DNA from: an uncultured Paenibacillaceae bacterium
GTDB taxonomy: Bacteria > Bacillota > Bacilli > Paenibacillales > K13
Direction: 5' to 3'
Length of the DNA stretch: 64,000 nucleotides
Assembly (NCBI GenBank): GCA_913056365.1
Contig: CAJXLT010000001.1
Span: 1 to 64,000 of the forward strand
The position numbers were made by a program, and so were the translations under genes. Shown one piece after another: positions 16,975 through 30,020 of the stretch. Each line of letters opens with the position of its first letter. Position 1 is the first letter of the stretch. The notes beneath the pieces were generated by a model that ran no database searches, was not told the DNA's origin, and saw nothing but the letters and a program-made list of their open reading frames with translations.

Positions 16975-17361
16975 CTAGGATTCTTGTTGCTTCTGTTGTC
17001 TGGGCGAAGCTTGCGGTTCCTCTGTATGTTCAGCTTGATGGGAAGTGACATCATCGCTGTCCACGCTGTCTGTTGTAACAGGCTCCTGCTCTGTACCTAA
17101 TTGACTGTCTTTTTGCCGTTCGGCAAGTTGGCGCTCCAAGCGGCGAATATGACGTTGTAGCCGAAATTGGCGAATGATGCCGATCGATCCGATACTAAGT
17201 CCGCCGAGCAGTGCCGATAGCAGAATGACCATGATGAGCGGCAGATTCGCATCGTAACCGAACCAATAGCTAACAGGTACGGGATTCATATTGGCAAGTG
17301 CAAAGAGCGTGATGATTAAGGCAAATACAAGTGCGGCGAGCACTGTCCATTGCATACGCAT
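16975..17361 (-). CDS. LapA-domain (DUF1049) membrane protein
   Basis: About 128 aa from MRMQWTVL (17361); the open frame reaches 17397 without a better site. Two transmembrane segments (about residues 3-23 and 40-62) are separated by the family motif NMNPVPVSYWFG. A basic coiled-coil stretch (QRHIRRLERQLAERQ) and a Gln/Glu-rich tail follow. In E. coli LapA works with LapB in LPS control; in Bacillota the role is unknown. Confidence 0.8.
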   Translation of the reverse strand: MRMQWTVLAALVFALIITLFALANMNPVPVSYWFGYDANLPLIMVILLSALLGGLSIGSIGIIRQFRLQRHIRRLERQLAERQKDSQLGTEQEPVTTDSVDSDDVTSHQAEHTEEPQASPRQQKQQES

Positions 17362-17565
17362 GGCAGTTTGGTTCCTCCTCTCGAAATGAAACGGCATAAT
17401 GTCTGACCGATAGGTTGTCCCTACTCCTGTCTCCTTATACTATATCAAAATCATACATGTGCGTCTCTTAGAAACGGAGAACATACTTCAAATGTATAAA
17501 AAATGTTATCCGATTGGGGAATTTACTTCTTCTGAACATGTTGATAGGCTTATGACAGATAGTGA

Positions 17566-17580
17566 TGATAATGATTATCA
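17566..17580. promoter_or_regulatory. Fur box upstream of the siderophore operon
   Basis: A perfect 7-1-7 inverted repeat, tgataat g attatca, identical to the core of the Bacillus Fur consensus. It lies 40 bases before the first gene, overlapping or just after the presumed promoter (ttgata at 17541), so iron-loaded Fur would block transcription. Confidence 0.92.
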
Positions 17581-17619
17581 TTATTGTCATGAATGTCATA
17601 TGGATTGTGAGGTGGAACC

Positions 17620-19455
17620 ATGGAGCAAGTGGAAAGAAGAGAGTCAGACAGGAAGAGTAAGCAAAGTGAGTGGGTCCATGCGCTGCAGTCCCTTCATTGT
17701 GCTGAAGTGGAGCAGAGAATCGTGAGACAGCTGATCGAAACGTTAGTATATGAAAACATTATAGCGCGCCTAGAATCGGTTGCGCTGCAGGAATCGGAGG
17801 GACGATTCAAGATTGAAGGTATAACAAGCGATGGACAAGCTGTTGCTTATGTGTGCAGGGGGAAGAGAAAGGACACTTTCGCTAGAATCCGCTTGACCAA
17901 GGATCCCGTCCTCCGCGTTGGACCTAGCGGAGATCAGACCAACGCCACGATATCGGAATTCGTCTCGGAGGTGTTAGGCCAACTTCAGAACAATGATGCG
18001 CTTGGCATGTTCATGGAGGAGCTTGTTCAAACATTACTCAAGGATACGCAAGCACAGATGGCCAATCCGATTAGGCAATTGTCCGGTGTAGCGCGCAGCT
18101 ACGACGAGCTGGAAGGCAACATCATGGACGGTCATCCCTACCACCCGTGCTATAAATCGCGAATTGGCTTTACGTTGGAAGACAATGCAGCTTACGGTCC
18201 GGAGTTCAAGCCGAAGCTTAAACCGGTATGGGTTGCGGTAGTAAAAGCAGAGTGCGAGTTAGCCGTATCCCGAACGTTGGACTACGCTGCATATATGAGT
18301 CAAGAACTAGGTGACGCCGTATATGCGCGGTTTGTTGGCAAGATCATGGAGAGCGGTAACGATCCAGACGATTATGTGTTGATTGCTGTGCATCCATGGC
18401 AATGGAGAGAAGCGATTATCCCAGTCTATTACCGTCAGCTTGCCGAGGGGCGCATGATCCTGCTAGGTGAGGGGGAAGACGACTATCGTCCACAACAGTC
18501 GATCCGCACGTTGGCGAACACTCTTCGGCACAAGGCTTACTTGAAATTGCCGCTGAACATCACGAATACATCGACTGGTCGCATATTGGCTCAGCATACG
18601 ATTATGAATGCCCCACTCATTTCGGATTGGCTGTATGACTTGATAGAGCGTGACGCTTATGCCAAGCGGCTCGGCTTCGTTGTATTGCGAGAGGTGGCAG
18701 GCGCTTCCTATAATCATGAAGTGCTTTCCGAGATAGAGCAAGAAAGGGCTTATGGGATGCTAGGAACGATCTGGCGAGAGAGCTTGCATACTTACATGCA
18801 GCCAGGAGATGAAGCAGCACCGTTCAACGCATTGTGCCACACGGACCGTTCGGGCCAGCCTTTTATCGATCCCTGGATCCAGAAGTTTGGTGCGGAGGAG
18901 TGGACCCGGACGTTGTTACGGATATCCGTCACCCCAATCATCCATCTGTTGTATGCGCACGGCGTAGCCTTGGAATCTCATGCACAGAATATGATTCTCA
19001 TTCACCGAGAGGGATGGCCTGCTCGCTTGGCATTGAAGGATTTTCACGATGGCGTTCGCTTTTCACGCAGTCATTTGGCTAATCCTTCAGTATGTCCGAC
19101 GCTACATCCGGCACCTGTGCGTCATGCGCAAATTAATAGAAATTCCTTTATCGAGACCGATGACGCAGCGATTGTGAGGGATTTTGTTCACGATGCCTTC
19201 TTCTTCATCAATTTGTCCGAGCTATGCATGTTTCTGGAGGAACGATACGGACTTGACGAGTCACATTTTTGGAGTATGGCGGCGCAGGTCATTCATGACT
19301 ATCAGCACGATCATCCAGAACATCGGGAACGATATGCATGTTTCGATTTGTTCGCAGAGTCAATTCAGGTAGAACAGCTTACGAAACGACGGTTGTTCGG
19401 GGATGGAGAGTTTCGCTTGCACACTGTACCCAACCCGCTGTACCGGTTCAGGTGA
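17620..19455 (+). CDS. IucA/IucC family NIS siderophore synthetase 1 (SbnF-like by context)
   Basis: 611 aa. ATP-dependent ligase that joins a carboxylate such as citrate to an amine. Hallmarks: the ATP-binding GHPYHPCYKSRIGF (about residues 168-181), VHPWQW, and the block LPLNITNTSTGRILAQHT, followed by the FhuF-like C-terminal iron-protein region. The gene is first in a six-gene operon directly behind a Fur box. In Staphylococcus aureus sbnF is followed by sbnG and sbnH, and the same order follows here, so an SbnF-like role is inferred. Ribosome site GAGGTGG. Confidence 0.92.
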   Translation: MEQVERRESDRKSKQSEWVHALQSLHCAEVEQRIVRQLIETLVYENIIARLESVALQESEGRFKIEGITSDGQAVAYVCRGKRKDTFARIRLTKDPVLRVGPSGDQTNATISEFVSEVLGQLQNNDALGMFMEELVQTLLKDTQAQMANPIRQLSGVARSYDELEGNIMDGHPYHPCYKSRIGFTLEDNAAYGPEFKPKLKPVWVAVVKAECELAVSRTLDYAAYMSQELGDAVYARFVGKIMESGNDPDDYVLIAVHPWQWREAIIPVYYRQLAEGRMILLGEGEDDYRPQQSIRTLANTLRHKAYLKLPLNITNTSTGRILAQHTIMNAPLISDWLYDLIERDAYAKRLGFVVLREVAGASYNHEVLSEIEQERAYGMLGTIWRESLHTYMQPGDEAAPFNALCHTDRSGQPFIDPWIQKFGAEEWTRTLLRISVTPIIHLLYAHGVALESHAQNMILIHREGWPARLALKDFHDGVRFSRSHLANPSVCPTLHPAPVRHAQINRNSFIETDDAAIVRDFVHDAFFFINLSELCMFLEERYGLDESHFWSMAAQVIHDYQHDHPEHRERYACFDLFAESIQVEQLTKRRLFGDGEFRLHTVPNPLYRFR

Positions 19456-19459
19456 CGCT

Positions 19460-20248
19460 ATGATAAGAACGAATCAGTTAAAGCAGAAGCTGCGTGAAGG
19501 ACATGACGTGTTTGGCTTGTTTTGCTCCATTCCTTCACCTGTTGTGGTAGAGATGATTGGATGCGCTGATTTTGATTTTATTATTATTGACACGGAGCAT
19601 GTGCTCGTTAACCCGGAGACGTTGGAGAATATGATTCGCGCGGCTGAAGTGGCTGGTCTGACGGTGCTCGTTCGTGTCTCAGAAGTCAATCCGAAGGAAA
19701 TATTACGCGTCTTGGACGGAGGGGCGCAAGGGATCGTCGTTCCCCATGTGGAAAGCCGCGAGCAAGCCCACCGCTTGGTCAACTGTTGCAAATATTGGCC
19801 GATAGGAAATCGCAGCTTGAACAGCGGCCGGGCCGGAGTGTTCGGGAAGTATGACTTGGTCGAATATATCCGGCAGGCGAATGAAGAGATTATGGTGGTG
19901 CCGATGATTGAAAGCGTACAGGGAGTGGAAAACGCAGAAGAAATTTTGTCGGTTCCGGGTATCGACATGATACTGGAAGGAGCGGCAGATCTATCGCAAT
20001 CCTGCGGAGTACCTTGGCAATCTCGTCACCCGAGTGTAAAGGAAGGGCTTCTGCGCTTATTCCGTGCCGCAACTTTGCATGATGTGCCGTATTGCGCTAT
20101 TCCCCGTGCAACCGCAGATTACGATGACTGGCGGGAACGGGGAGTTCATGCCTATGTGCTTGGTGATGAGCGCGGGATTTCCTTCCGTGCTTTGCGAGCG
20201 CATTTGCAATCGTATCAACTTGACAAAGCCAATGAATCGCGGAGGTAA
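19460..20248 (+). CDS. SbnG-like citrate synthase of the HpcH/HpaI aldolase family
   Basis: 262 aa from the ATG at 19460, four bases after the previous stop. HpcH/HpaI class II fold with the metal ligands Glu151 and Asp177 and the active-site His47 and Arg72 in the expected places (IDTEH, VRV, PMIES, GAADLS). SbnG proteins make citrate from oxaloacetate and acetyl-CoA, supplying siderophore synthesis independently of the Krebs cycle. The operon setting favours this over catabolic aldolase activity. Ligand positions match those of HpaI within two residues. Confidence 0.88.
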   Translation: MIRTNQLKQKLREGHDVFGLFCSIPSPVVVEMIGCADFDFIIIDTEHVLVNPETLENMIRAAEVAGLTVLVRVSEVNPKEILRVLDGGAQGIVVPHVESREQAHRLVNCCKYWPIGNRSLNSGRAGVFGKYDLVEYIRQANEEIMVVPMIESVQGVENAEEILSVPGIDMILEGAADLSQSCGVPWQSRHPSVKEGLLRLFRAATLHDVPYCAIPRATADYDDWRERGVHAYVLGDERGISFRALRAHLQSYQLDKANESRR

Positions 20249-20254
20249 ATATCG

Positions 20255-21484
20255 ATGATTGTATCTATGAATAACGTTGTTGCGCATAAGGCGGTTGCCG
20301 CTTATATGGATAAGTCCAAGCAAGCGGGAGGGGAACCGGTCTGTGCCTTTATTTATGATCTGCGTGCTCTGCGGGAGCATGCCGAGCGATGTGTGAGGGA
20401 GCTTCCCGACGGATGCCAGCTGTTCTACGCAATGAAGGCGAATCCGGACGAGCAGTTTCTGAAGTGTTTGGCTCCTATTGTGCACGGCTTTGAGGCGGCT
20501 TCAATCGGTGAAATTCGCAAGGTTCGCAAAGTAGCACCACATATCCCTGTAATTTTTGGCGGTCCTGGGAAGAAAGATTCGGAGATTGCGGAGGCTCTTG
20601 ATCGTAACGTGACTTTGCTTCATGCAGAGAGCATACATGAGCTGCGACGCATCTCTATGCTGGCAAGTGAGCGCGATATTGCTGCTTCCATTCTGTTGCG
20701 GGTGAACGTGCGTTCCGTTCTTCCAGAAGCGACACTGACGATGGCCGGACGGCCTACGCAATTCGGGATTGATGAAGCGGAGCTGCCTGACGCTATTCGG
20801 CTTGCACAATCGCTGCCGAATGTAGTTCTTGAAGGCTTCCATCTTCATTCGATTTCCAATAACCTAGACGCACGGCTTCATGCGTTGCTGATTGCAACCT
20901 ATTGGCAACGTGTCAAGGATTGGAGCCGAACGTTCGGCCTCTCCATCAAGTATGTCAATGTCGGGGGAGGATTCGGCATTTCCTATACAGACCCGGATCG
21001 GCAATTTGAATGGCCTGTTTTTACGCACGAGCTGCAACAAGTGCTCGCTGAGCATCGTATGCCGGGCGTACAGCTGTTGTGTGAACCCGGGCGTTATATT
21101 GCCGCTGCTTGCGGTTATTACGCTGTTGAGGTGACGGATATCAAGCGCAATCACGGCAAAAACTTCGCCATCATTAGGGGAGGCTCCCATCATTTTCGAC
21201 TTCCGGGCTCGTGGCAGCACAGCCATCCGTTCGAAATTATCCCTGTCGAGCATTGGCCCTATCCATTCCCCCGAACGGCGTTGTACGACAGCGAAATTAC
21301 TGTGGCAGGGGAGCTGTGCACACCTAAGGATGTGCTCGCCAGAGAAGTGAAGGTAGACCGTCTGCGAATCGGTGATGTGCTGTTGTTTCAATTCGCGGGT
21401 GCATATGGTTGGACGATTTCCAGCCATGACTTCCTTAGTCACGCTCATCCGGAGCATATATACCTGGAAGACGATATGGATTAA
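20255..21484 (+). CDS. SbnH-like PLP-dependent decarboxylase (fold III)
   Basis: 409 aa, alanine-racemase-like barrel with the PLP lysine in FYAMKAN, the glycine-rich phosphate site VGGGFGISY, CEPGRYI and a C-terminal GAYG region. Related to diaminopimelate and ornithine decarboxylases. In staphyloferrin B synthesis SbnH decarboxylates the citryl-diaminopropionate intermediate. Here no diaminopropionate genes are present, so the substrate may be a different amino acid or conjugate. GGAGG site seven bases upstream. Confidence 0.9.
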   Translation: MIVSMNNVVAHKAVAAYMDKSKQAGGEPVCAFIYDLRALREHAERCVRELPDGCQLFYAMKANPDEQFLKCLAPIVHGFEAASIGEIRKVRKVAPHIPVIFGGPGKKDSEIAEALDRNVTLLHAESIHELRRISMLASERDIAASILLRVNVRSVLPEATLTMAGRPTQFGIDEAELPDAIRLAQSLPNVVLEGFHLHSISNNLDARLHALLIATYWQRVKDWSRTFGLSIKYVNVGGGFGISYTDPDRQFEWPVFTHELQQVLAEHRMPGVQLLCEPGRYIAAACGYYAVEVTDIKRNHGKNFAIIRGGSHHFRLPGSWQHSHPFEIIPVEHWPYPFPRTALYDSEITVAGELCTPKDVLAREVKVDRLRIGDVLLFQFAGAYGWTISSHDFLSHAHPEHIYLEDDMD

Positions 21485-21496
21485 AGGGGGGAGATT

Positions 21497-23500
21497 ATGG
21501 AGTTATCACTAACTAGTCTTAAGATGCAAGCCAATACCAAACGAACCTTGGCAGCAACAAGCGAGGCAGAGGAACGGGTGAAGGCCGATCTGGTCAACGC
21601 ATTGCTTGCAGAACAATTATTTGCAGAATGGGGACGGGGTGAGCTGTTATCCCCTGCGGAGTGGAACGAGTCGGTCTGCTCTCATTCCTTTCTGTCAGCT
21701 GCTGCGTTACGGTCCGTACCTAATACAAGTTCTTCGGAAAGCATGCTGTTTTATCGCTGGTGGATGGATGAGGAAGTTGAGCATTATTTGTTTTTTGCCG
21801 TGCAACCGGCAATCATTCAGCCTTACCGATATAGCGGCGGAGGGATCTACGAGGTGAAGTCGAATCCGGGTGGAGCGATGCGCAGCCTGGATGCTATTGA
21901 TCTGATGGAGCGGATGATTGCCGTCATCCAAGGAACAGACACAGGAGATTACCCTGCGGCTTATTCCCGTATGTTGGATATGCTTCGGATTACAGTTCAG
22001 CAAACAGTGTGGTCACTGGAAGCACCGCAGCAGCAAGATTCAGCGCTTGCATTGCCTGCCGCTTCGTGCTTGCTGGAGCTGGAGCGTCGGGCATCATACC
22101 GCGATCGTCCGTTTCATCCCGTTGCCAAAGCCAAGCTCGGCTGGACACAAGAGGATTGCCAGGCATATAGCGTCGAGTTCGGTCAGCCGATGATGCTTCA
22201 CTGGATGGCGGTGAAGCGGCAGTTCCTGCTGCAAAGTAGGGGATATAGTACTGAAGCCCAAGTGCTCGGTGTTGGGAAGGATACCCCGGCTGATATGCTA
22301 CTCTCCGCTGATGATCGTGAGCGTGTTGCAGCGTCCATGGCACGGCGAGGGCTGACAGATGAGGCGTATGTGGCAATACCGGTTCATCCGTGGCAGATGG
22401 ACCACGTCTTGCCGCAGGAGCTGCGCGTGGAATTAGAGGAAGGAGTATGTGTGCCATTGGATGTGACGGCTGGCGCCTATATCTCTACGTCATCCGCTCG
22501 GTCGTTGGCGCCGAAGGAGGGAGGGAATCAGCATGTGAAGCTTCCGCTCGGGATCGTCTCGCTTGGGGCGGTCCGTTATCTTCCCGCAGTCCATATGATC
22601 AATGGATTGCGCGGATCGCAGCTGCTGGAGCAGGCCAAGCAGCGAGATGCTGTGTTAGGGCAGCGGTTATATCTGTGCGATGAATCGAGCTGGTGGGCGT
22701 ACATGCCCGATGACGAAAGTTGGTTTGCCGACCATCCCCGACATCTGTCTGCACTGATTCGTGAATATCCGTCTGCGTTGACCTCGGACCCTGCGATTCG
22801 TCTTATTCCGATGTCATCTCTAGCCGTGCTGACCGCTAATGAACGTGGACACGTGTTTGACGAATGGATGCAGATGCGGAAACTGGAAGCAACGGAAACA
22901 TCTATTGTACAGCTTTTCAGGGAAGTATGCTCCTCTTTTTTTCAAATTACATTGCGTCTGTTCCGCTTAGGCTTGCTTCCGGAAATACATGGGCAGAACA
23001 CGTTGCTTGTATGGAAGGAAGGTCACATCGAAGGGATTCTGCTCCGCGATCACGATACGGTGCGGCTCCATCTGCCGTGGCTGGAAGCCTGCGGGCTGAA
23101 CGATCCGTGCTACATGATGAAGCCGGGCTATCCCAATTCGCTGTACAATGAAACACCGGAGAAGCTCCTGCTCTATTTGCAAACCTTGGGCATTCAGGTC
23201 AACCTGTACGCAATCCTAGAAACGGTGTCTCACTATTATCAGCTGGAAGAGTCACGGCTATGGGTTGTTATGCAGGAGAGTCTGGAGAGTGAGATCGTGC
23301 ATGCACAATTACCGGATACTGCAATCCAACTGCTGAGGGATACTTTGTTCGAGAAGGAGACATGGCCATGGAAGCAGCTCATTCGGCCGCTTCTAGCGCA
23401 ACAGGAGCCTCTATCGGGAAGCATGCCTGCAGGCATAGGTGAAGTTCCCAACCCGTTTCTATCTATGCCTAACAGAACTATAACCCGCTATGAAGTATGA
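21497..23500 (+). CDS. IucA/IucC family NIS siderophore synthetase 2
   Basis: 667 aa. Synthetase motifs RPFHPVAKAKLGW, PVHPWQMDHVLP, SSARSLAPKEGG-HVKLPL and EIHGQNTLL. Its sequence differs clearly from synthetase 1 (PFHPVAK versus PYHPCYK; TSSARS versus TNTSTG), pointing to a different carboxylate specificity class. It is followed by the MFS exporter just as sbnC is followed by sbnD in S. aureus, so an SbnC- or SbnE-like role is inferred. GGGGGGAG ribosome site; the stop overlaps the next start (ATGA). Confidence 0.92.
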   Translation: MELSLTSLKMQANTKRTLAATSEAEERVKADLVNALLAEQLFAEWGRGELLSPAEWNESVCSHSFLSAAALRSVPNTSSSESMLFYRWWMDEEVEHYLFFAVQPAIIQPYRYSGGGIYEVKSNPGGAMRSLDAIDLMERMIAVIQGTDTGDYPAAYSRMLDMLRITVQQTVWSLEAPQQQDSALALPAASCLLELERRASYRDRPFHPVAKAKLGWTQEDCQAYSVEFGQPMMLHWMAVKRQFLLQSRGYSTEAQVLGVGKDTPADMLLSADDRERVAASMARRGLTDEAYVAIPVHPWQMDHVLPQELRVELEEGVCVPLDVTAGAYISTSSARSLAPKEGGNQHVKLPLGIVSLGAVRYLPAVHMINGLRGSQLLEQAKQRDAVLGQRLYLCDESSWWAYMPDDESWFADHPRHLSALIREYPSALTSDPAIRLIPMSSLAVLTANERGHVFDEWMQMRKLEATETSIVQLFREVCSSFFQITLRLFRLGLLPEIHGQNTLLVWKEGHIEGILLRDHDTVRLHLPWLEACGLNDPCYMMKPGYPNSLYNETPEKLLLYLQTLGIQVNLYAILETVSHYYQLEESRLWVVMQESLESEIVHAQLPDTAIQLLRDTLFEKETWPWKQLIRPLLAQQEPLSGSMPAGIGEVPNPFLSMPNRTITRYEV

Positions 23501-24732
23501 ACAACCGATGGAAAGTAAATTTTCGCTTGCTATGGGGCGGTCATTTTTTAGCTGTATTCAGTTCCATGGTCATTGCGCCTATGCTGCCGTTTTACATGGA
23601 GGAATTAGGAGCAGAGGATCAAGCCTCGGTGCTGCTGTGGAGCGGGTTGAGTCTGGCAGCGCCAGCCGTATCTGCGGCATTGACGGCACCGCTCTGGGGA
23701 AGATTAGGAGACCTTACAAGCCGCAAGTGGATGGTCGTACGGGCGCTTTTCGGGTCTTCCTTGGTGCTGGCAGCGATGGCTTTCGTGGATACACCTATGC
23801 AACTCTTTATTCTTCGCTTTCTTCAAGGCGCGCTTGGGGGTGTCGTTGATGCTGTAGGCGCTTTCGCCGCATCAGAGGCACAGAAGCAGGAGCAAGGGCG
23901 AGTACGGGGGAAGCTGGAGGGCGCATTGGCGGCCGGTTCGATGCTTGGCCCGCTGCTCGGGGGCATCGCATTCGGCACAATCGGCTTTCGCAGCTTGTTC
24001 GTCCTGTCGAGTATCCTGTTGGCGCTATGGACCGTGCTTAGTTATATCGGCTTGAAGGAAACGAGGCGAGAGACCATCGTAGCTGTCCAATCTGCCGGAA
24101 TGGGCAAGCAATTCACATTGCTGCTGCGTGAGCGGAAGGTGATTCTGTTTTTAATAGCAGGAATCTTGGCCAACTTCGGCATCCATGGGTTGCTTACGGT
24201 GTTGCCGTTACATGTGAAGACGTACGTCGGGGATGCATCCGATACCGCTGTGTGGGTCGGTATCCTGCAAGCGATAAATTGGGCTGCGGTATGGTGTGCG
24301 TCATCATGGTGGGGAAGTAGGAATGATTCGTACCCGGTCGAACGCAATTTTATTATAGCCTCTGCCTTATGCGGGGTGGCAATCTTGCTTCAGGCATTCG
24401 CCCCGAGCATCTATTGGCTCGTTATATGGAGAGTGCTGCAAGGATTCGCGTCCAGTGCATTGGTGCAGTCTGTATTTCTAATTGTGACGCGCACTTCGTT
24501 AGCAGATCAACTGGGTTCTAGGATCGGCATGACAAGAAGTATATTATTCTTCGGTCAAATCGCAGGCCCTTTGGTGAGCGGGCTGTCAGGCAACAGCATC
24601 CATACCGCAATGCTATTTACCCTACATGGTTCTGTTATTATCACTAGCGGATTGCTCATCGGGTTATTCGTCAGAGGAAATAAGGCAAGCGAACGCATGC
24701 ACAAACAACAAAAAAGGGAGGCAGGTTTATGA
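23497..24732 (+). CDS. MFS exporter, probable siderophore efflux (SbnD-like)
   Basis: 411 aa, about 12 membrane segments in two halves, with the MFS loop 2-3 motif GRLGDLTSRKWMVVR and a second half starting near ILANFGIHG. Translationally coupled by four-base overlaps to genes on both sides. Position suggests export of the finished siderophore. A diverged 85-bp copy of its 3' part lies at 26323-26408. Confidence 0.88.
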   Translation: MNNRWKVNFRLLWGGHFLAVFSSMVIAPMLPFYMEELGAEDQASVLLWSGLSLAAPAVSAALTAPLWGRLGDLTSRKWMVVRALFGSSLVLAAMAFVDTPMQLFILRFLQGALGGVVDAVGAFAASEAQKQEQGRVRGKLEGALAAGSMLGPLLGGIAFGTIGFRSLFVLSSILLALWTVLSYIGLKETRRETIVAVQSAGMGKQFTLLLRERKVILFLIAGILANFGIHGLLTVLPLHVKTYVGDASDTAVWVGILQAINWAAVWCASSWWGSRNDSYPVERNFIIASALCGVAILLQAFAPSIYWLVIWRVLQGFASSALVQSVFLIVTRTSLADQLGSRIGMTRSILFFGQIAGPLVSGLSGNSIHTAMLFTLHGSVIITSGLLIGLFVRGNKASERMHKQQKREAGL

Positions 24733-26060
24733 AATCGAATCATATGCATTTGAATCTGTTCGTCTTGAATACGGGCCATCATGAAGCATCATGGCGTCAT
24801 CCTGACACAATGCCTGAGAAAATAACGGACATTGATTATTACATACAATTGGCGCAAATGGCTGAAAGCGCAAAGCTGGATTCACTGTTCATTGCGGATG
24901 CCCTCGTGCTGACTCCGGCTATCCAATACAAGATAGGAGCCGGACTTGAGCCGCTCACGATGCTGTCAGCACTTGCTGTTGCGACGGAGCGAATCGGACT
25001 CATTGGTACGGTGTCGACCACTTATAGCGAGCCTTATAATGTTGCGAGAATGTTCGCTTCCCTGGATTTCATTAGCCGGGGGCGGGTAGGCTGGAACAGC
25101 GTCACATCTGTCGGCGATATAACGGCAGTGAACTTCGGCAGAGATCAGCATCCCGAGCATGGGGACAGGTATGCAAGGGCACAGGAATATGTGCAGGTGC
25201 TGAAGGGATTGTGGGATTGCTGGCAGGACGACGCATTGCTCTATGACAAGCAAGCAGGGATCTACGCGGATTATGATCACAAAATCAGTCCGCTTCATCA
25301 CCAAGGTCAATACTACTCTGTACAAGGCCCACTAAATATCCCCCGATCCCCGCAAGGCCATCCTGTACTCGTTCAGGCCGGTTCCTCCGATGCGGGCAAA
25401 GAACTGGCTGCCGAAACGGCTGAAGTCATATTCACCGCTCAGAACTCACTCGCATCTGCAAGAAGCTTCTATGCCGATGTGAAGCGAAGAATGGCGAAGT
25501 ACGGAAGATCCCGTGATGAACTCAAAATATTGCCCGGATTTAGTCCGATTATCGGCGCTACCGAATCGGAAGCTCGGGAGAAGGAAGCTATGCTGAATGA
25601 ACGGATTACGCCTGCTTTCGGTCTAATTCGTCTATCCAATTCTCTGGAAATTGATTTGTTCCAGTATCCGCTTGATGGGCCTGTGCCCTTGGAGGATTTA
25701 CCGCCTGTCGATCAAGTGAAAGGTCAAAAGGCACGGTTCGAAATGCTTGTGGAGATGGTGCGAAACGAAAATTTGACCATCCGGCAGTTAATTGTCCGCA
25801 CTGCAAGCGCAAGGGGGCATTATACGATTGCGGGAACTGCTAAGCAAATCGCGGATGTCATGGAAGAGTGGGTACTTACAGAAGCAGCGGACGGCTTCAA
25901 TGTGATGCCGCCGTATTTCCCAGGAGGGTTGGAGGATTTCGTCAGTCAGGTGGTGCCTGAATTGCAGAATAGGGGATTGTTCCGAACCGAATATTCAGGC
26001 CGGACGCTGAGAGAGCATCTAGGCTTGAAGCGGCCTAGCGGGGTGCTTCAATCAGTCTGA
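24729..26060 (+). CDS. LLM-class flavin-dependent monooxygenase (NtaA/SnaA/DszA type)
   Basis: 443 aa luciferase-like barrel with family segments SLFIADALVL, RVGWNSVTS, NFGRDQHPEHGDRY, LVQAGSSDAGKELAAETAEVIFTAQ and the C-terminal DGFNVMPPYFPGGLEDF. These enzymes use reduced FMN from a separate reductase, which is not encoded here. As last gene of the siderophore operon it may hydroxylate an amine or tailor the product, or break down a chelator. It is not part of the known staphyloferrin B set. Four-base overlap with the exporter gene. Confidence 0.9.
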   Translation: MKSNHMHLNLFVLNTGHHEASWRHPDTMPEKITDIDYYIQLAQMAESAKLDSLFIADALVLTPAIQYKIGAGLEPLTMLSALAVATERIGLIGTVSTTYSEPYNVARMFASLDFISRGRVGWNSVTSVGDITAVNFGRDQHPEHGDRYARAQEYVQVLKGLWDCWQDDALLYDKQAGIYADYDHKISPLHHQGQYYSVQGPLNIPRSPQGHPVLVQAGSSDAGKELAAETAEVIFTAQNSLASARSFYADVKRRMAKYGRSRDELKILPGFSPIIGATESEAREKEAMLNERITPAFGLIRLSNSLEIDLFQYPLDGPVPLEDLPPVDQVKGQKARFEMLVEMVRNENLTIRQLIVRTASARGHYTIAGTAKQIADVMEEWVLTEAADGFNVMPPYFPGGLEDFVSQVVPELQNRGLFRTEYSGRTLREHLGLKRPSGVLQSV

Positions 26061-26065
26061 ACAAA

Positions 26066-26106
26066 TAAGGCTGTCCCAAAAGTCATAAAATGACTTGGGG
26101 GCAGCT
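26066..26106 (+). terminator. Hairpin after the siderophore operon
   Basis: ggctgtcccaaaagtcat pairs with atgacttgggggcagct around an aaa loop, followed by GCTTCTT. A likely operon end, although sequences of this shape also occur at insertion-sequence ends. Confidence 0.55.
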
Positions 26107-26299
26107 GCTTCTTAATTCGAGAACAATGGCTATGCTCTTCACGGGTTAGGGTATGGGTTCCGGCCGCTGTTGAACATCGTGTTCTGGTTATGAAATGAGT
26201 GAAGGGTGAGAACACGACGTTCAAGAGGCGGACGTAAACTCCTCCACCCATACCCTACCCTCGCGCTTTTTGTTCTTCTCTTCGAAGCTGCCCCCAAGT
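26093..26299. repeat. 207-bp imperfect palindrome (MITE-like, no ORF)
   Basis: Perfect 14-bp ends (acttgggggcagct at 26093-26106 and its complement at 26286-26299). Nested inner arms are gggttagggtatggg (26143-26157) with cccataccctaccc (26247-26260), and a 16-base arm at 26170-26185 with 26209-26224 (one mismatch) around a 23-base loop. The whole unit can fold into one long hairpin. No transposase is present and no target duplication is obvious. Confidence 0.75.
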
Positions 26300-26322
26300 T
26301 TTGAATCCTTTGGAATATCCCT

Positions 26323-26408
26323 AATCGCAGGTCTCTTGGTGACAGCGGGTTGTCAGGCAACAGTATCCATACCGCAACGCTATTAACCCTACATGCTTCT
26401 GTTATCAA
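26323..26408 (+). pseudogene. Decayed fragment of the siderophore MFS exporter gene
   Basis: About 85 bases closely similar to 24561-24645 inside the exporter gene (shared pieces include tgtcaggcaacag and atccataccgcaa). It is isolated from the rest of the gene. This implies duplication of the exporter region followed by deletion, or insertion-mediated copying. Confidence 0.8.
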
Positions 26409-26588
26409 CGGACATCAGTGACCATTACAAGGCGTATGAGGCGTGTTTGCCAATGTAACGGTCACGGATGACTGTAAGCGCTGAATGGACTGGTCAAAAC
26501 GACGTTTTTTTGTCGCTAGTGGTCATCGGCGACCGTTAAAAATCAAAAATGCGTTTTTATTCCCTCTAATGGACACGAGTGACCGTCA
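26408..26588. repeat. Four copies of a ~20-bp motif (consensus tggtcatcngtgaccgtta)
   Basis: Copies near 26408-26427, 26455-26474 (inverted), 26519-26538 and 26569-26588. Each is itself partly palindromic (ggtca...tgacc). Nothing else is seen in 26589-26901 apart from an AT-rich upstream region. Confidence 0.6.
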
Positions 26589-26901
26589 CAGAGTGAACTG
26601 GCTGGTTCAGTCACTCTTTCCGACCCCCAACGTTACTCTTCCCGCTCCGGATACTGTTGCTTACTCAAGTCCATTGCAGCAGTAGCAGATTTCATGCACG
26701 TAAGTAGTAACAAAATTCACTTAGAGATCAATGTCTGAAGTACAGTTTCCCGGCCAACAGATACCGTCCCTCTTCTGCAAAAAATCAATCGAAAATAGTG
26801 TTAATATGTAATTTTTTTGTCTTTATTGATATTCAATTATCGGAGTATTGGTGCTAAAATGAAAATATAGTTTATTACAAAAATAAAGAGGACGGTTACA
26901 A

Positions 26902-27933: not shown

Positions 27934-29748
27934 TTACTTCTTCAATTGCTTCGCAGTCGCTTCCATTTCCTCAATGATCGATTCGAATACGCTCATCGCT
28001 TCCTCGATCGGCTTCGGAGAGGACATGTCGACGCCTGCCTTCTTCAGAATGTTGATCGAGAAGTCACTGCCGCCGCTCTCCAGGAAGCCAAGGTAGCGGT
28101 CTACTGCCGGCTGGCCTTCCTCCAGAATTTGCTTCGAGAAACTTGTAGCTGCGGAGAAGCCAGTCGCATACTTGTACACATAGAAGCTCGTATAGAAGTG
28201 CGGAATACGCGCCCATTCCATTGCAATATCTTCATCGACGACCATTCCGTCCCCGTGGTACTTCTTATTCAATGCATAATAGGTATCGCTCAATAGCTGC
28301 GGTGTTAGTGCTTCCCCTTCATCAGCCTTCTCGTGAATGATCTTCTCGAATTCGGCGAACATCGTCTGTCGGAAGACGGTCGTACGGAACTGATCGGCGT
28401 AGTAGGTGAGCAGGTACATCTTGCTCTTAGGATCATCGGTATGCTCCAGCATATAATCCATGAGCAATGCCTCATTGAGCGTCGAAGCTACCTCTGCGAG
28501 GAAGATCGTGTACTGTGCGTCGCGGTACGGCAGATTCGTATCAGACAAGTATGAATGCATCGCATGGCCCATCTCATGCGCCAATGTGAACATACTGTTC
28601 AGATTGTCCTTATGGTTGAGCAGTACATAAGGGTGAGTGCCATATGCGCCCCAGCTGTATGCTCCGCTGCGCTTGCCTTCATTCTCATAAATATCAATCC
28701 AGCCTTCCTCGAAGCTGCCTTCCAGCACCTTCAAGTATTCCTCACCGAGCGGTTTCAGACTGTCTAACACTTTCTGCTGCGCTTCCTTGTAAGGGATTGT
28801 CATCTTGGCTTCTTCTACAAGCGGTGCGAACAGATCATACATATGCAGTTCATCAACGCCTAGCATGCTCTGACGCAGCTTCATGTAGCGCTGCAAGAGC
28901 GGTAGATGATGGTGAATCGTATCAATCAGATTCGTATACACATCCATTGAAATATTATCGCCGTACAAGGACATTTCCAAGGCAGACGGATAATTCCGCA
29001 CTTTGGCATAGAATAGATTTTTGGTTACGTTCGCATTCAAGGTAGAGGCAAGCGTATTCTTCTGCTTGGCATACGTACCGTACATCGCTTGGAATGCGCG
29101 TTGGCGGACATCGCGGTCTTCACTCTCAAGAAATTGTATGTACGATCCATGCGTCAGCTCGCGCTCCTCCCCGATCTCATCACGCACCTTCGGGAATTTC
29201 ATATCTGCATTGTTGATCATGCCGAATATCGTGCCTGGCGCTTGCGACAAGTTGCCTACCTGAGCCATTAGAGCCTCTTGTTCCTTGGGCAGCACATGCG
29301 GCTTCTGACGGAGCATCTCCTCCAAGGTGAACGTATAAGCGGATAGCGCAGGATCTTGAATGAATCCCTTTAACGTCTCATCAGGCAGTGCTAATATTTC
29401 CGGGGTAATAAAAGACAATGCTTCGCTGACTTCTACGCTGAGCTTCTTGGCCTTCTCAGATAAGGACATAGCAGCAGTGTCTGCCGTATCCTCATGATGC
29501 TTCATATTGGCATACACATACAGGCGCTCGGTATGCAGCGAGATGTCATCCTCAAGCTCGAAGCAAGCTTTCACGCTTGCTGCATCTTTCAACGTGCCTT
29601 GATAATCGGCGATTTGGTCCAGCTGCTTCTTGACGATGGCATATTCCTGATCCCATTCCTGCTGGTTTGCGAATAGATCCTCCAGCTTCCAACGATGCTC
29701 TGTCGGCACCTCTGATCGTTTGGTAACTTGGTTGCTTGTCTGGCTCAT
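27934..29748 (-). CDS. pepF: Oligoendopeptidase F (M3 family)
   Basis: 604 aa from the ATG at 29748, which follows a strong GGGAGGAG site and gives the usual PepF length. Zinc motif LAHEMGHAMHS, preceded by SGAYSWGAYGTHPYVLLN. It cleaves short peptides of about 7-17 residues in the cytoplasm. The same frame stays open to 29922, where an ATG with its own AAGGGGTG site would add 58 residues beginning with a signal-peptide-like stretch (VAVGLCVAALFATSMQA). A secreted form is therefore possible. Confidence 0.92.
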   Translation of the reverse strand: MSQTSNQVTKRSEVPTEHRWKLEDLFANQQEWDQEYAIVKKQLDQIADYQGTLKDAASVKACFELEDDISLHTERLYVYANMKHHEDTADTAAMSLSEKAKKLSVEVSEALSFITPEILALPDETLKGFIQDPALSAYTFTLEEMLRQKPHVLPKEQEALMAQVGNLSQAPGTIFGMINNADMKFPKVRDEIGEERELTHGSYIQFLESEDRDVRQRAFQAMYGTYAKQKNTLASTLNANVTKNLFYAKVRNYPSALEMSLYGDNISMDVYTNLIDTIHHHLPLLQRYMKLRQSMLGVDELHMYDLFAPLVEEAKMTIPYKEAQQKVLDSLKPLGEEYLKVLEGSFEEGWIDIYENEGKRSGAYSWGAYGTHPYVLLNHKDNLNSMFTLAHEMGHAMHSYLSDTNLPYRDAQYTIFLAEVASTLNEALLMDYMLEHTDDPKSKMYLLTYYADQFRTTVFRQTMFAEFEKIIHEKADEGEALTPQLLSDTYYALNKKYHGDGMVVDEDIAMEWARIPHFYTSFYVYKYATGFSAATSFSKQILEEGQPAVDRYLGFLESGGSDFSINILKKAGVDMSSPKPIEEAMSVFESIIEEMEATAKQLKK

Positions 29749-30020
29749 CGAACTCCTCCCATCGCTTTGACGAATCGACCGGCTGTCGAAGCCTTCATAG
29801 CTTCCTCCGGTTAAGTAGTTGCCGGTCTCGCGGTCTGCGAATATACCGGATGCTTGCATTGATGTAGCGAACAGAGCCGCCACGCACAAACCCACGGCAA
29901 CTCGAGTTCCAGCCTTACTCATGGAAACACCCCTTCAATCCGAGGATTGTTTTCCATAGTATGGCTCTCTCTAATGCTTATTATAGCGTGAATGCAGTGC
30001 TGAATTCAAAAAATACGGAG

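Follow-up and report, generated by a model that had tools for sequence, protein, structure and literature searches.

A staphyloferrin B-type gene set divided between two Fur-box-preceded operons of apparently different ancestry in an uncultured Paenibacillaceae bacterium

The window operon and its surroundings

The window, the 64,000-nucleotide stretch of DNA analysed here, opens contig C1 of a 34-contig draft genome (4.65 Mb). It carries at 17620-26060 six co-directional open reading frames (Table 1), the first three junctions being gaps of 4, 6 and 12 bases and the last two 4-base overlaps; they are the six coupled genes of an earlier sequence-only reading. Two belong to the IucA/IucC synthetase family and the others to the HpcH/HpaI aldolase, PLP decarboxylase, MFS and bacterial luciferase families. 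The identities proposed in that reading (NIS synthetase, SbnG, SbnH, NIS synthetase, MFS and LLM) are confirmed by protein models, by solved relatives and by comparison with a Staphylococcus sbn locus. The solved relatives 4tv5, 6knh and 7cbb are structures that we take to be those of S. aureus SbnG, SbnH and SbnC, respectively. The reversed order of two blocks had also been read correctly: F-G-H precedes C-D in the window, whereas the Staphylococcus order is A-B-C-D-E-F-G-H. Neither sbnA, sbnB nor a third synthetase lies within the window operon, and a search ahead of sbnF revealed no remnant of sbnE. No Rfam family matched between 16.8 and 28 kb. A plasmid search returned a Bacillus badius relative at 52%, although the matches were mostly aerobactin IucC.

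Table 1. Features of the window operon, its flanks and the C9 half (coordinates refer to the window unless prefixed C9)
Feature	Position	Strand	Evidence or remark
Small membrane protein, left flank	16975-17397	-	
Sigma-70-like promoter ATGACA-18-TATCAT	17552-17581	+	Overlaps the Fur box; weak consensus match
Fur box GATAATGATTATCATTATt	17567-17585	+	One mismatch to GATAATGATTATCATTATC
sbnF-like type C NIS synthetase, 611 aa	17620-19455	+	SbnF model 639 bits, below the narrow staphylococcal cut-off of 900; AsbB 468 bits; tree
sbnG-like citrate synthase, 262 aa	19460-20248	+	4tv5 252 bits; Staphylococcus comparison
sbnH-like PLP decarboxylase, 409 aa	20255-21484	+	6knh 428 bits; tree
sbnC-like NIS synthetase, 667 aa	21497-23500	+	SbnC model 437 bits, below the narrow staphylococcal cut-off of 700; 7cbb 323 bits; tree
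sbnD-like MFS exporter, 411 aa	23497-24732	+	Tree with type I (100); 40% to the Staphylococcus SbnD position
NtaA/DmoA-type FMN-dependent LLM monooxygenase, 443 aa, siderophore-cluster clade	24729-26060	+	TIGR03860
82-nt remnant of a second MFS copy, 3' part	26323-26405	+	88% identical to 24558-24638; downstream of the monooxygenase gene
M3-type peptidase, right flank	27934-29922	-	88% identical in the sister genome
Type A (SbnE-like) NIS synthetase	C9:17580-19382	-	Directly downstream of sbnB; best solved relatives IucA, AcsD
SbnB	C9:19375-20478		391 bits, curated cut-off 327
SbnA	C9:20436-21467		433 bits, curated cut-off 350
R, LuxR-type regulator gene	C9:21550-21942		Precedes sbnA

Only three sites in the 4.65 Mb have one mismatch or none, the Fur box ahead of sbnF among them. 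About 17 Fur-like sites occur genome-wide, and a control search with the reversed pattern gave zero sites at up to 3 mismatches. The box is near-perfect. Of the earlier reading, a citrate-type NIS siderophore operon that holds a reordered staphyloferrin B-like set and is probably regulated by iron is supported. Sigma-70-like sites such as the one overlapping it are no more numerous than expected by chance.

The site of the operon is empty in the sister genome (G001), the sole other member of the genus available for comparison, where the membrane protein and peptidase genes lie 577 bp apart. With two genomes compared, a gain in the lineage studied here and a loss in that of the sister would fit equally well. 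A transferred island of deviant composition was considered and rejected: the G+C content of the operon (about 0.50-0.55) is like that of its flanks, and the only AT-rich stretch is at 26-28 kb. The second-MFS remnant points to a former duplication of the MFS gene at this place, of the kind that a reshuffling of the type I gene order described below might have left behind. Two further features were observed at this edge. A possible small hairpin-bounded element (26066-26322) separates the monooxygenase gene from the MFS remnant, and a dispersed intergenic repeat (26405-26665) also occurs on contig C19 near binding-protein genes, its copies there (L211, 1867-2302; L212, 3362-3586) showing 79-89% identity.

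The remaining sbn genes on a second contig

A whole-genome search for sbnA and sbnB had been named beforehand as a check on the sequence-only reading, and their discovery elsewhere in the genome was the first of two findings that, by that reading, would together count against it. Both genes were found on contig C9, with scores above their curated cut-offs and beside a third synthetase. The statement that these three genes are missing therefore holds for the window operon and fails for the genome, and with it falls the proposal that the amine must differ. The genome encodes exactly three NIS synthetases. A search for related loci among genome contigs returned two loci only. The C9 synthetase falls inside the SbnE tree. 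Relative to the Staphylococcus reference locus, whose own SbnF scores 1120 bits and thus lies above the staphylococcal cut-off, identities are 58% for A, 60% for B, 39% for C, 40% for D, 37% for E, 45% for F, 46% for G and 48% for H. Homologues of all of SbnA to SbnH are present in the genome, split over C1 and C9: the pair for L-2,3-diaminopropionate (L-Dap) synthesis, SbnA and SbnB, on C9, outside the window operon; the three synthetases SbnE (type A), SbnF (type C) and SbnC; and, by sequence, the citrate synthase SbnG and the decarboxylase SbnH.

The two loci, each 17.6 kb from the start of its contig, must be separated by 35 kb or more, even were the contigs adjacent. Contamination as the origin of C9 was rejected: the neighbouring genes keep the order seen in the sister genome, at 75-87% identity, and the reported contamination of the assembly is 0.25%. 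The second of the three best Fur sites is an exact match at C9:22114, upstream of the R-sbnA-sbnB-sbnE operon, and a Fur box is also found before sbnA at C9:21472. Judging from these strong boxes, both operons are probably under the control of Fur.

The single sbnA-I operon with adjacent sirABC and SbnI is not the arrangement found here. No sirABC genes lie beside the window half or the C9 half, in which respect the sister genome differs. No dedicated SirABC orthologue was recognised, the Fur-linked binding proteins of this genome being only 25-29% identical to SirA, and SbnI was not recognised among the open reading frames of the Fur-box regions. Such an arrangement is typical of the S. aureus operon and is not essential to the pathway.

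Ancestry of the two halves

Relatives of both halves were sought in a survey of 395 genomes sampled from the order, and their phylogeny was examined with quick IQ-TREE trees (SH-aLRT supports, given in brackets) and topology constraints assessed by the AU test. Two cluster types are pertinent (single letters denote sbn genes). Type I is a contiguous MFS-LLM-(R)-A-B-E-F-G-H-C cluster shared by 8 further genomes from the order (L048, L050-L055, L065); in two of the eight loci the stretch examined showed no MFS gene. Type V, R-A-B-MFS-E-F'-H', occurs in three other genomes (L162-L164). The sister genome has just two synthetases, in an R-A-B-E-F'-H' cluster.

The C9 half is closest to the cluster of the sister genome (identities of 87% for A, 81% for B and 69% for E). 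Both A and B group with their sister-genome counterparts (100). The E protein pairs with that of the sister genome (100) and then with type V (99), apart from the type I E proteins; forcing the pair together with type I was rejected (p-AU 2.6e-5). Gene order tells the same story. In the sister genome the locus reads peptide ABC transporter - ATP-grasp - COG0523 - H' - F' - E - B - A - R - binding protein - FecCD. The C9 order is the same up to COG0523, where a gap of 0.66 kb without traces of H' or F' leads directly to E - B - A - R; unlike in the sister genome, no FecCD gene lies beside this half. Because type V also has E-F'-H', the parsimonious view is that H' and F' were lost on the lineage studied here.

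The window half has other affinities. The F genes closest to its sbnF sit in type I clusters, and F, G, H, C, MFS and LLM are about 50-80% identical to their type I counterparts. F groups with type I and L049 (86) within a fully supported branch (100) that excludes F', and forcing it together with the F' of the sister genome and type V was rejected (p-AU 0.001). G groups with type I and L049 (95), and H (93), MFS (100) and LLM (99) group with type I; C falls within a branch holding types I-III (99). For the placement of F with type I and of H relative to type V, the basis is the branch supports.

Judged by these trees, the two halves differ in origin: the C9 half is best read as derived from an R-A-B-E-F'-H' cluster that is still intact in the sister genome, and the window half as derived from a contiguous MFS-LLM-A-B-E-F-G-H-C cluster. 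A scenario in which one ancestral cluster was simply rearranged, A-B-E relocating to C9, is rejected, since E belongs to another lineage (p-AU 2.6e-5).

The survey also returned other arrangements. Type II loci (L056, L058, L060-L062, L064, L066, L087) have E-F-G-H-C and no sbnA or sbnB within the 19 kb examined; the question of the amine source may really apply to these clusters. Type IV loci (L074, L076, L077, L165, L181) combine A-B-H-F-F, with two tandem SbnF-like synthetases, and a divergent MFS-E. Loci of type V, taken as R-A-B-(MFS)-E-F'-H' and so including L080 (7408-15088) besides L162-L164, have no SbnC or SbnG, and their product is probably a Dap/citrate siderophore without alpha-ketoglutarate. 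Locus L187 (G543:C3:388000-407000), with divergent operons C-MFS-F-H and A-B-E-F-G-H and thus two copies each of F and H, is another way to split the sbn set. Locus L015 (NZ_JAGGOF010000103.1), titled Pseudomonas fluorescens ISL-33, carries an E-H-F-G-C cluster at 47% identity to the window SbnF and is perhaps a mislabelled Bacillales genome.

Predicted pathway, the monooxygenase and related systems

In S. aureus, staphyloferrin B is made from citrate, two Dap units, one of them decarboxylated by SbnH, and alpha-ketoglutarate (PMC3179956). By analogy with this pathway, SbnA and SbnB of the C9 half would provide Dap, which the SbnE-like type A synthetase would couple to citrate supplied by the window SbnG. 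The window SbnH would then decarboxylate citryl-Dap to citryl-diaminoethane, SbnF would attach the second Dap, SbnC would attach alpha-ketoglutarate and the MFS protein would export the finished siderophore. The most likely substrate of the monooxygenase is the completed siderophore, perhaps in its ferric form. It is considered likely that the window operon completes a staphyloferrin B-type pathway whose first half lies on C9, the two unlinked Fur-controlled operons differing in ancestry. The gene sets of the two operons are exactly complementary, which makes their independence unlikely. By the same analogy the amine is most likely Dap, as in staphyloferrin B, and the product most likely staphyloferrin B or a close derivative. 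Of the new citrate-based siderophore proposed earlier, the citrate-type character is retained. The acyl acceptor of the C9 SbnE-like enzyme could differ from Dap, since its lineage (type V and the sister genome) lacks SbnC and SbnG. The pathway itself is known; its assembly as a patchwork of two lineages, split over two operons, is unusual.

The operons might alternatively make two siderophores, the C9 genes (A, B and E) a simple citryl-Dap chelator and the window genes a product with an amine from another source. The separate ancestry and own regulator of the C9 operon would suit this, as would the members of the order that have E-F-G-H-C without sbnA/B in the 19 kb examined. It is nevertheless improbable: the genome has only three synthetases, the window half lacks a type A enzyme for the first step on citrate, and the C9 half is without the H' and F' found beside E in related clusters; together the halves sum exactly to SbnA-H behind strong Fur boxes. 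That both operons are instead remnants of a decaying hybrid making no siderophore, as the missing genes, the second-MFS scrap at the operon edge and the lack of an adjoining dedicated uptake operon might suggest, is very improbable, all nine structural genes being open, coupled and equipped with sharp Fur boxes and the set being complete rather than random.

The monooxygenase belongs to the NtaA/DmoA subfamily (TIGR03860, 553.6 bits against a curated cut-off of 279.7), and among solved structures it is closest to a nitrilotriacetate monooxygenase (3sdo) and to YtnJ. It had been regarded as an added gene. However, orthologues at 72-80% identity occur in 8 other genomes of the order and all adjoin the type I cluster, so that all nine close members, including that of the window, are cluster-linked, and a local addition is rejected. 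When the next-best relatives are included in the tree, 18 sequences linked to clusters of type I, type III or F-F-A-B-H order group as a single clade (96). LLM sequences outside it are nearly all unlinked to F, a contrast subject to sampling bias, as the linked sequences came from loci collected on account of their F gene; L082 is cluster-linked yet outside the clade. No flavin reductase gene lies within the window operon. A literature search found no paper linking LLM/NtaA enzymes to NIS or siderophore clusters.

Type III clusters (L069-L073, L078, L079) bear on the function of this enzyme. They have the order R - class III aminotransferase - E - MFS - F - C - LLM - binding protein - FecCD - FecCD, with no sbnA, sbnB, sbnG or sbnH in the stretch examined. 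Given the class III aminotransferase in place of sbnA/B, the enzyme is associated there with a different predicted amine; the type III diamine probably differs from Dap, being for example diaminobutyrate. The type III LLM gene adjoins uptake genes, and its neighbour at two type I loci is a gene for a lipoprotein, possibly a binding protein. Another amine and such neighbours argue against a specific hydroxylation of the Dap-derived amine; hydroxylation of the amine had been suggested previously. The enzyme may instead process the ferric siderophore or tailor the product.

Tailoring would mean oxidation of the backbone, yielding a hydroxylated or N-oxidised analogue of staphyloferrin B, and would be compatible with the split pathway. 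It seems possible, if somewhat doubtful. The gene is translationally coupled to that of the exporter, it lies between the exporter gene and sbnA in several type I clusters, and its clade is tied to NIS clusters. On the other hand, characterised NtaA, DszA and YtnJ members degrade their substrates rather than build them, and the type III gene adjoins uptake genes where there are no Dap genes. LLM relatives break NTA and EDTA, and a bolder proposal, rather unlikely as a whole, is that the clade is a siderophore-dedicated branch of the NtaA/EDTA monooxygenases that oxidatively breaks carboxylate siderophores for iron release or chelator recycling, here as part of a pathway put together again from two half-clusters that lost complementary genes. 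We know of no such oxidative route of iron release for staphyloferrin-type siderophores.

If the split pathway is accepted, it would offer a clear example of complementary gene loss combining two lineages into one siderophore pathway, linked by the Fur box that both operons share. A cluster that seems incomplete in cluster-based genome mining can be half of a complete and probably co-regulated pathway, and missing genes do not imply a new compound without a whole-genome check. The recurrence of the monooxygenase clade in three kinds of NIS cluster makes it a testable candidate for the modification of carboxylate siderophores or for iron release.

Compared with sbnA-I of S. aureus, the system has the same SbnA-H homologues, including three NIS synthetases, SbnG, SbnH, the SbnA/B Dap enzymes and an MFS exporter, and a Fur box. 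It differs in its two operons, the order F-G-H-C-D, the LuxR-type regulator gene beside sbnA and the extra monooxygenase, and in having no adjacent sirABC and no recognised SbnI. Type I clusters hold A-B-E in the same cluster, with MFS-LLM on the A side, and the C9 E has closer relatives than theirs. The sister genome has the R, A, B and E closest to the C9 half, amid the same neighbouring genes, but its cluster, like type V, keeps F' and H' of another lineage and is without SbnG, SbnC and a window-type operon. Finally, in contrast to the NtaA, EmoA, YtnJ and DszA monooxygenases, the window LLM belongs to a distinct clade situated inside or beside siderophore clusters.
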